Below, piece by piece: positions 4,208 to 6,586 of a stretch of 7,267 nucleotides of DNA. The translations under genes were made by a program, and so were the position numbers. Below the pieces are notes generated by a model. That model had not been told where the DNA came from. It ran no database searches and was given only the letters and a program-made list of their open reading frames with translations. The DNA comes from Propionibacteriaceae bacterium (GTDB lineage Bacteria > Actinomycetota > Actinomycetes > Propionibacteriales > Propionibacteriaceae). The stretch lies in assembly GCA_030528545.1 (NCBI GenBank), contig JAUMYR010000134.1, positions 1-7,267 of the forward strand, read 5' to 3'. Within the stretch, counting starts at the first letter, position 1, and the number at the start of each line of letters is the position of its first letter.

Positions 4208-6310
4208 ATGACGACCACTGTTGACTCTTCCTCCGATACGACTCCCACAGATCCCTGGGATGGTTTCGTTCCCGGGCCGTGGCAGGACATCATCGACGTG
4301 CGGGACTTCGTCCAGCGCAACTACACCCCCTACACCGGGGACGCTTCCTTCCTCGCCGGGCCGACAGCCAAGACGCTGCGCACCTGGGAGACCCTGGAGC
4401 GTGACTATCTGTCGGTGGAGCGGGCCCGCCGGGTCTACGACGTCGATATCGACACCCCCGCCGACATCGACGCCTTCGGCCCCGGCCACATCAGCGCCGA
4501 CGACGACGTGATCGTCGGGCTCCAGACCGACACCCCGCTGAAGCGCGCCATGATGCCCTTCGGCGGCTGGCGCATGGTGGAGACCGCGATCCGGGAGGCG
4601 GGCAAGGAGCCCCGCCAGGACATCAAGGACATCTTCACCAAGTACCGCAAGACCCACAACGAGGCGGTCTTCGACGTCTACACCCCGCGGATCCGCGCTG
4701 CGCGCTCCTCGCACATCATCACGGGCCTGCCGGACGCCTACGGCCGCGGCCGCATCATCGGCGACTACCGCCGGGTCGCCCTGTACGGTGTCGACAAGCT
4801 GATCGAGTTCAAACAGGCCGACAAGGGCGCGGTCGACGACGCCCCCTTCAGCGAGCACTGGGCGCGGTTCCGCGAGGAGCACGCCGAGCAGATCAAGGCG
4901 CTGAAGAAGCTCAAGGCGATGGCCGCCAGCTACGGCTTCGACATCTCCGGCCCGGCCCGCACCGCGCAGGAGGCGGTGCAGTGGACCTATTTCGGCTATC
5001 TGGCCTCGGTCAAGTCGCAAGACGGCGCGGCCATGAGCATCGGCCGGCTATCGGCCTTCTTCGACTGCTACTTCCAGCGTGACCTCGCCGCTGGCGTCCT
5101 GACCGAGGAGGGCGCGCAGGAGATCATCGACGCCCTGGTCATCAAACTGCGGATCGTGCGTTTCCTGCGCACCATCGAATACGACCAGATCTTCTCCGGC
5201 GACCCATACTGGGCCACCTGGTCCGACGCGGGGCTCGGCGAGGACGGGCGTCCCCTGGTGACCCGGACCTCGTTCCGGCTGTTGCAGACCCTGCGCAACC
5301 TCGGCCCCGCCCCGGAACCGAACATCACCATCTTCTGGGACCCGAAGCTGCCCCAGGGTTACAAGGACTTCTGCGCGGCGATCTCCATCGAGACCTCCTC
5401 GGTGCAGTACGAGGCCGACGAGCAGATCCGCTCCCACTGGGGCGACGACGCGGCCATCGCGTGCTGCGTGTCCCCGATGCGCGTCGGCAAGCAGATGCAG
5501 TTCTTCGGGGCCCGCATGAACGCCGCCAAGACGCTGCTGTACGCCATCAACGGTGGCCGTGACGAGATGAGCGGCAAGCTGGTGGTGCCTGACCACGAGG
5601 GCGTCCAGGGCGATGGCCCGCTCGACTTCGACGATGTGTGGTTGCGCTACGAGAAGATGCTCGACTGGGTGGTGGCCACCTATATTGAGGCCCTCAACAT
5701 CATCCACTGGTGCCACGACCGCTACGCCTACGAGTCGATCGAGATGGCGCTGCACGACTCCGACATCGTCCGCACCCTCGGCTGCGGCATCGCCGGGCTG
5801 TCGATCGTCGCCGATTCGCTGTCGGCCATCAAGTACGCCAAGGTCACCCCGGTGCGCGACGAGACGGGGCTGGTCGTCGACTATGTCACCGAGGGTGACT
5901 TCCCCACCTACGGCAACGACGACGACCGGGCTGACGAGATCGCGGCCGCCATCGTGCACACGGTGATGAGCAAGATCAAGGAGATCCCGCTCTACCGCGA
6001 CGCCATCCCGACCCAGTCGGTGCTGACGATCACCTCCAACGTGGTCTACGGCAAAGCGACCGGCTCCTTCCCATCCGGGCATCGGGCCGGGACCCCATTC
6101 GCCCCGGGAGCGAACCCCCAGAACGGGGTCGACAACCACGGGATGCTGGCCTCCATGCTGTCTGTCGGCAAGCTGGACTACGCCGACGCCCTCGATGGCA
6201 TCTCACTGACGAACACCATCACCCCCTCAGCCCTGGGCCGCACCAAGGAGGAGCAGGTGGAGCACCTGGTCGGCATCCTCGACGCGGGTTTCGTGCCCGA
6301 GGGCTGCTGA
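4208..6310 (+). CDS. pflB: Pyruvate formate-lyase catalytic barrel, lacking its glycyl-radical domain
   Basis: Formate C-acetyltransferase turns pyruvate and CoA into acetyl-CoA and formate in anaerobic fermentation. The 700-residue product follows the E. coli enzyme over the whole barrel: DPWDGFVPGPWQ near 15-26, TPLKRAMMPFGGWRM at 109-123, LPDAYGRGRIIGDYRRVALYG at 174-194 (GRGR holds a substrate-contacting Arg), and SGDPYWATW near 330-338 with the substrate-side Trp. DDAAIACCVSPM carries the catalytic Cys pair 419-420, and KQMQFFGARMNAAKT holds the second substrate Arg (436). The C-terminal RVSGYA glycine domain found in one-piece enzymes of about 760 residues is absent. The chain ends VGILDAGFVPEGC at TGA, at the linker before that domain, and the domain is the next gene. 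The operon is pflB, a grcA-like gene and pflA. It should be inactive alone and become active with its small partner once the activase has acted. The identification is very secure. Confidence 0.97.
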   Translation: MTTTVDSSSDTTPTDPWDGFVPGPWQDIIDVRDFVQRNYTPYTGDASFLAGPTAKTLRTWETLERDYLSVERARRVYDVDIDTPADIDAFGPGHISADDDVIVGLQTDTPLKRAMMPFGGWRMVETAIREAGKEPRQDIKDIFTKYRKTHNEAVFDVYTPRIRAARSSHIITGLPDAYGRGRIIGDYRRVALYGVDKLIEFKQADKGAVDDAPFSEHWARFREEHAEQIKALKKLKAMAASYGFDISGPARTAQEAVQWTYFGYLASVKSQDGAAMSIGRLSAFFDCYFQRDLAAGVLTEEGAQEIIDALVIKLRIVRFLRTIEYDQIFSGDPYWATWSDAGLGEDGRPLVTRTSFRLLQTLRNLGPAPEPNITIFWDPKLPQGYKDFCAAISIETSSVQYEADEQIRSHWGDDAAIACCVSPMRVGKQMQFFGARMNAAKTLLYAINGGRDEMSGKLVVPDHEGVQGDGPLDFDDVWLRYEKMLDWVVATYIEALNIIHWCHDRYAYESIEMALHDSDIVRTLGCGIAGLSIVADSLSAIKYAKVTPVRDETGLVVDYVTEGDFPTYGNDDDRADEIAAAIVHTVMSKIKEIPLYRDAIPTQSVLTITSNVVYGKATGSFPSGHRAGTPFAPGANPQNGVDNHGMLASMLSVGKLDYADALDGISLTNTITPSALGRTKEEQVEHLVGILDAGFVPEGC

Positions 6311-6320
6311 CCAACCGACT

Positions 6321-6326
6321 AGGAGG
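6321..6326 (+). promoter_or_regulatory. Strong ribosome binding site of the separate glycyl-radical domain
   Basis: A perfect AGGAGG stands 8 bases before the ATG at 6335-6337. It lies in the 24-base gap after pflB and shows that the radical domain is translated as its own protein. A TAG at 6320-6322, in frame with pflB, overlaps it and is a second block to readthrough. Confidence 0.85.
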
Positions 6327-6334
6327 AAACAACA

Positions 6335-6586
6335 ATGGCAATCAAGACCTATGACGAGCGCGTGGCGGACATGACGGCCCAGCGGGAGGAGCGCGGCAGC
6401 GTCCCCGGCCTGTTCCACGCCAACATCAACGTGCTGAACCGGGAAACCCTCGAAGACGCGATGGAGAACCCGGAGAAGTACCCGAACCTGACCGTGCGGG
6501 TCTCTGGCTACGCGGTGAACTTCGTCAAACTCACCAAAGAACAGCAGCGCGACGTGCTGTCTCGCACCTTCCACCAGGGTTCGTGA
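6335..6586 (+). CDS. grcA: Stand-alone glycyl-radical domain protein, GrcA/YfiD-like
   Basis: An 83-residue protein that ends like pyruvate formate-lyase. NVLNRETLEDAMENPEKYPN at 32-51 is followed by LTVRVSGYAVNFVKLTKEQQ at 52-71 and RDVLSRTFHQGS. Gly 58 in RVSGYA is the residue on which the activase makes the stable radical, and its distance to the C-terminus (25 residues) is nearly that in the E. coli enzyme. In enterobacteria a similar protein (YfiD/GrcA, about 127 aa) is a spare part that rescues oxygen-cleaved enzyme. Here it directly follows a barrel with no radical domain, so I infer it is the obligate second subunit. It lacks the longer N-terminal region of E. coli YfiD; instead the first 25 residues are charged and probably helical (MAIKTYDERVADMTAQREER). 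AGGAGG 8 bases upstream gives a strong start. The stop overlaps the GTG of pflA. Confidence 0.95.
   Translation: MAIKTYDERVADMTAQREERGSVPGLFHANINVLNRETLEDAMENPEKYPNLTVRVSGYAVNFVKLTKEQQRDVLSRTFHQGS

Follow-up and report, generated by a model that had tools for sequence, protein, structure and literature searches.

The window, by which we mean the whole stretch of 7,267 nucleotides of Propionibacteriaceae DNA that was analysed, very probably encodes a two-subunit pyruvate formate-lyase (PFL) made up of a barrel protein and a separate radical subunit that is charged by an activase. The initial annotation had proposed that the enzyme is divided between a barrel gene and a gene for the glycyl-radical part, and this was borne out by a profile search with the Pfam Gly_radical family (106 positions). 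The end of the barrel matched positions 1-65 and the small protein matched positions 66-106, so that the two genes each encode a part of a single Pfam domain.

Layout of the locus and position of the cut

The following features were located in the window:

4208..6310, + strand: PFL barrel subunit (PflB without the radical domain), 700 aa, from profile matches and alignment with the E. coli enzyme
5462..5467, + strand: codons of the catalytic Cys419-Cys420 pair, aligned with ACC of E. coli PFL
6308..6310, + strand: stop codon of the barrel gene, TGA
6320..6322, + strand: second in-frame stop codon, TAG, inside the 24-nt intergenic gap
6321..6326, + strand: AGGAGG ribosome-binding site, 8 nt 5′ of the small-gene ATG
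6335..6586, + strand: glycyl-radical subunit of the GrcA2 family, 83 aa (NF008341, 159.1 bits)
6335..6406, + strand: N-terminal extension of the small protein, residues 1-24, with residues 6-20 predicted to form a helix
6506..6508, + strand: codon of the radical-bearing Gly58, in RVSGY
6583..7266, + strand: probable radical-SAM PFL activase, truncated at the window end (TIGR02493, 207.2 bits)

The C-terminus of the barrel, HLVGILDAGFVPEGC, ends just short of the glycyl-radical domain. Alignment with E. coli PFL placed the barrel on residues 10-694 and the small protein on residues 696-757. The start codons of the two genes are 2127 nt apart and in a common frame. This spacing, the cysteine pair at 419/420, Gly58, the length of 83 residues, the order TGA then TAG and the AGGAGG had all been noted initially, and each was confirmed. 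The open reading frame of the activase begins with a GTG at 6583 that overlaps the stop codon of the small gene, and its match to TIGR02493 starts at residue 66, which corresponds to an ATG at 6778.

Two other gene pairs are present in the window. A PylC-like ATP-grasp protein lies beside a PLP-dependent decarboxylase of the ornithine/arginine type at 3-2207, on the strand opposite to the PFL genes. Directly 5′ of the PFL genes, at 2349-4042 on the + strand, genes for a hexapeptide acyltransferase and a DegT-type aminotransferase overlap at their ends, an arrangement common in sugar-nucleotide synthesis.

Family membership and structure model

The barrel scored 644.6 bits against PF02901 (PFL-like) and 960.1 bits against TIGR01255, covering positions 2-681 of 744; the latter score is under the cut-off of 994.2 because the end of the protein is missing. 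The small protein itself gave 81.2 bits with TIGR01255, and a natural fusion of the two parts (L017, see below) reached 1041.8 bits, above the cut-off. Two traits of TIGR01255 are distributed over the two proteins: the adjacent catalytic cysteines are present in the barrel, where Cys419/420 match E. coli, and the RVSGY loop that the family has on the same chain is absent from the barrel and sits on the second protein (Gly58). Among the families of small radical proteins, the 83-aa protein passed the cut-off of NF008341, GrcA2 (159.1 bits, cut-off 145), and missed those of TIGR04365, YfiD/GrcA (94.3 bits, cut-off 170), and NF038360, GrcA3 (98.4 bits, cut-off 158). For the activase the best family was TIGR02493, at 207.2 bits against a cut-off of 231.75, the gene being truncated by the end of the window.

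A structure model was built of a single chain in which the stop codons were read as linker residues. The combined chain is predicted to fold like E. coli PFL, with 56% identity over 746 structurally aligned residues.

Distribution of the divided gene

The set of loci compared with the window, in which some genomes were sampled twice, consisted of the best 80 of 587 loci from a protein search of contigs, 120 loci from genome searches (L081-L200) and 40 that were picked (L201-L240). On first parsing, these 240 loci and the window gave 99 split cases (the window counted), 101 fused cases, one locus truncated by a contig end and 40 unparsed. A second pass over the unparsed loci yielded 37 fused and three unclear, one of which, L230, was later read as split. 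Set aside were L064 (truncated by the contig end), L027 (genome G022), whose barrel frame is broken and has a TAG within it, and L214, whose barrel looks degenerate. The last, from an actinomycete genome of 9.2 Mb (G043), is a PFL-like barrel frame that has lost its end; no radical domain was observed in its vicinity, and the frame is probably a pseudogene.

Twenty further regions, 17 of them chosen for an apparent in-frame pair, comprised 19 split loci and one unparsed. Another 20 regions with long open frames were chosen to find hidden fusions of barrel and radical domain; none was found there, 19 being split and one unparsed. At L232, L255 and L281 the barrel end was not parsed, yet in each the radical segment is separate and carries the N-terminal extension.

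Of the 99 split loci, 91 have an activase gene that follows 3′ in the same orientation, and the order barrel, small gene, activase is shared across Propionibacteriaceae, Actinomycetaceae, Corynebacterium and Dermabacteraceae. The split occurs in Brachybacterium and Helcobacillus of the Dermabacteraceae and also in Pseudactinotalea. The closest barrel among the best 80 of 587 loci, 94% identical, is from a Propionibacteriaceae metagenome assembly (L001), and a small protein that is likewise 94% identical carries the name Arachnia propionica. The initial expectation that similar adjacent pairs exist in actinobacterial genomes is thus upheld by the 99 split loci, the window included. The arrangement had also been suggested to be perhaps known in annotation but little studied; the pair is annotated piecemeal, and GrcA2 is a named family.

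Searches of genomes with TIGR01255 indicated how common each form is. A class-wide sample gave matches in 47 of 394 genomes, which were 40 uninterrupted genes, three split (G001, G106 and G401) and four fragments or degenerate copies. Within Propionibacteriaceae, 68 of 197 genomes matched, with 30 uninterrupted genes (one with an internal stop), 17 split and 21 others; these others are fragments or other glycyl radical proteins, G562 and G610 resembling split fragments. For the two remaining groups the counts rest partly on score and match number rather than on DNA read-out: among the matches listed, 97 of 201 Corynebacterium genomes matched, of which one is shown to be fused (G013, L017) and the remainder have a break at the split point or only pieces, and 184 of 200 Actinomycetaceae genomes matched, 32 being uninterrupted, 7 weak and 145 broken at the split point.

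Reading frame and possible artefacts

The common frame of the two window genes could be explained by an assembly error or a recent nonsense mutation in a one-piece gene. This explanation is refuted by the split relatives, and we give it practically no credence. The division is found in 99 loci, with an intergenic gap of 4 to 227 nt across 64 of them and an in-frame arrangement in 19 of those 64; in addition, the small gene has its own Shine-Dalgarno-like site and encodes a conserved N-terminal segment. With a lenient pattern, such a site was detected before the small gene in 90 of the 99 split loci.

The shared frame had been pointed out initially, and it carries no weight. In-frame pairs made up 10 of the 27 split loci of L001-L033 (L027 excluded) and, with L201-L240 included, 19 of 64 (p 0.60 against 1/3), which is the level of chance; several of the L201-L240 regions carried an in-frame flag when they were chosen, so the set of 27 is the cleaner one. 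The common frame in the window is therefore a matter of chance. The same statistics led us to reject stop-codon read-through or recoding, by which the pair would yield some one-piece enzyme. The single frame in the window would allow it, and so would L017, a natural fusion in one frame that has not lost the small gene's start codon or N-terminal segment; with in-frame pairs at chance level in both locus sets and two in-frame stops in the window, we consider it very improbable.

Obligatory subunit or spare part

PFL-like and Gly_radical Pfam families were searched in 25 genomes, 23 with a split and two with a fused gene (L006, L009, L011, L013 and L018 were left out). In 22 of the 23 split genomes no second PFL-like barrel was detected by this search; since genome completeness is not given and some of the relatives are metagenome assemblies, its absence there is not proof. 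The exception is G021, in which a protein of 900 aa contains another PFL-like barrel together with a radical domain; a frame of 760 aa in this genome gave an additional whole Gly_radical match. Whole Gly_radical matches were also found in G002 and G003, in frames of 733 and 917 aa with no second barrel match; these are perhaps anaerobic ribonucleotide reductases.

In these 22 relatives with a single barrel, no detached radical donor for it other than the small protein was observed. The small protein had initially been proposed to be obligatory, and its conservation, the lack of another barrel in those 22 relatives and the structure model support this: the best interpretation is that of a required subunit rather than a spare. 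The opposite possibility is that it is an ordinary YfiD/GrcA-like spare for a complete PFL elsewhere and that the barrel is a decayed copy, as the NCBI family name 'autonomous glycyl radical cofactor GrcA2' would imply. The chance of this appears small, given that 22 of 23 split relatives have no other PFL-like barrel for it to repair, that the barrel is intact in the window and conserved across families, and that the small protein scores far under the YfiD cut-off (94.3 against 170 bits).

A further question concerns the substrate. Sequence separates PFL poorly from TdcE-type enzymes, and a two-subunit enzyme used mainly on another 2-keto acid, for example 2-ketobutyrate, would be hard to tell apart in this way. 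The best family is nevertheless TIGR01255, identity to E. coli PFL is 56% over the 746 structurally aligned residues, and the barrel is the sole PFL-like one in 22 of 23 split relatives, which makes such a main substrate highly unlikely.

Origin of the split and probable re-fusion

A tree of 63 barrels required four changes between split and fused forms, with the bootstrap not settled. Grouping of all split forms as a single clade apart from the fused ones was rejected (p-AU 0.008). In the best tree the bifidobacteria and a fused group of Sanguibacter and Propionibacteriaceae nest inside the split forms, and split ancestors may have given rise to the one-piece PFLs that bifidobacteria and some Propionibacteriaceae possess. 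However, trees in which either group was forced to join the one-piece outgroup were not rejected (p 0.47 for the bifidobacteria and p 0.18 for the Sanguibacter/Propionibacteriaceae group).

For this reason only L017, from Corynebacterium sp. Marseille-P4321, is a fairly secure case of re-fusion. Its gene is fused, with the small gene's start codon and N-terminal segment still present at the junction of the two halves, and it adjoins a split relative in the tree with support 100/96. Re-fusion is thus likely, from one sequenced locus in which a sequencing error is possible. The fused gene (L017:1705-4092) also retains the internal ATG and a preceding GGA-containing stretch, and might still make a free small protein. 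As to the split itself, the N-terminal segment shared by the small proteins argues for one origin.

N-terminal segment and proposed mechanism

The added N-terminal segment is common to 50 aligned small proteins, absent from one-piece PFLs and predicted to be helical; Arg9 and Arg17 are invariant in 50 of 50. We propose that it restores docking to the barrel. Work on E. coli provides the background (PMC8683613): YfiD repairs an otherwise complete PFL and its binding requires PFL residues 696-733, and its binding to a barrel of residues 1-695 is too weak to measure, yet that barrel is functional once activated. With the 1-695 barrel, YfiD lacking its N-terminal half gave 2.7 uM radical against 0.5 uM otherwise (PMC8683613), so possession of an N-terminal segment brings no advantage in itself, which speaks against the proposal.

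The N-terminal segment could be a modified version of the helix that lies ahead of the radical domain in the barrel; of two profile scans, the second was suggestive of this. In the first scan this helix fell outside the five best positions, the barrel profile being too short in most trims to contain the register, and of 500 column shuffles between 31 and 104 scored at least as high as the best matches elsewhere. With a longer barrel profile in three trims, the expected register ranked 4/666, 9/668 and 5/664 and was not the best place.

In the mechanism that we propose, the barrel would bind CoA and pyruvate and carry both cysteines, and the 83-aa protein would bring the radical loop and dock at the site taken by the C-terminal domain of one-piece enzymes, its conserved N-terminal helix doing the docking work of their covalent linker. 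The neighbouring radical-SAM activase would charge Gly58, and the radical would be handed on to Cys419/420. More speculatively, spent small subunits might be exchanged after cleavage by oxygen, as had been suggested initially. Split PFL is also found in strict anaerobes and one-piece PFL is kept in aerobic actinomycetes, so the distribution does not simply follow oxygen exposure.

Taken more widely, the actinomycete enzyme could be an obligate two-subunit PFL whose radical part is consumable and exchangeable, whose N-terminal helix replaces both the linker and the YfiD recognition element, and whose split is reversible, L017 then being a re-fusion in which the helix is retained as the linker; this extended reading is tentative, and we would not yet bet on it.

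Significance

No description of a natural split PFL, with the pair treated as one two-subunit enzyme, was found in searches of an open-access library. A 2021 paper states that, of the wider family, just YfiD and Y06I have been characterised. If the two-subunit reading is correct, a large set of proteins named as spare parts would be indispensable to the enzymes they belong to, and PFL would consist of two chains in many actinomycetes, including oral and skin species. The split would also be a natural answer to the laboratory problem of the E. coli 1-695 barrel, which hardly binds a detached radical domain, and with a radical domain exchangeable without remaking the barrel the idea of oxygen repair would become directly testable.

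Comparison with known systems

A second, differently placed split was observed in Collinsella aerofaciens, where a pflB-grcA3 pair lies at L261:5590-7978 and the pre-radical helix is in the small protein. As in the window, barrel and radical domain are encoded by adjacent genes, which for this type was seen in Collinsella only, but the cut is earlier: the match of the barrel ends at model position 665, against 681 for the window barrel, and GrcA3 starts at 663, taking in the helix before the radical domain. The GrcA3-type split is present in Coriobacteriia and probably in Bacillota.

The PFL matches include two barrel-only PDB chains, 38la with 687 aa and 38lb with 739 aa, which are absent among the radical-domain matches; their depositors may well be aware of natural split PFLs. 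Chain 38la matches a 666-aa protein, a 99% identical one being named from Amygdalobacter nucleatus, and 38lb matches a 718-aa protein, followed by proteins of 693-698 aa, some named Olsenella or Thermophilibacter. Parts of a bacterial vaginosis study (PMC12208373) report Amygdalobacter-specific PFL spectra and, for A. nucleatus in culture, the secretion of formate and lower growth with the PFL inhibitor hypophosphite; these parts do not discuss split PFL, and the data in them fit a functional enzyme with a barrel that is missing the radical domain. Several barrel-only PFLs (P0247, P0257, P0250, P0226 and P0223) terminate in a short cysteine-rich stretch or close to one, for example CGCC or CGCCEGTC, perhaps for metal binding or as a redox switch.

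The one-piece enzyme, E. coli PflB (PDB 2pfl/1h16), has the same barrel, cysteine pair, radical loop and overall fold, and probably a corresponding activase. It differs in that the radical domain is here a separate gene product, alignment of the barrel stopping at residue 694. YfiD/GrcA (TIGR04365; PDB 6owr) is likewise a detached radical domain serving a PFL barrel, but the window barrel lacks the equivalent of residues 696-733 and the N-terminal segment of its small protein is shorter. The name of GrcA2 (NF008341) implies a spare part, whereas the present data indicate that the window member is a subunit. Finally, the E. coli 1-695 truncation made in the laboratory has its cut at the same position as the natural split.
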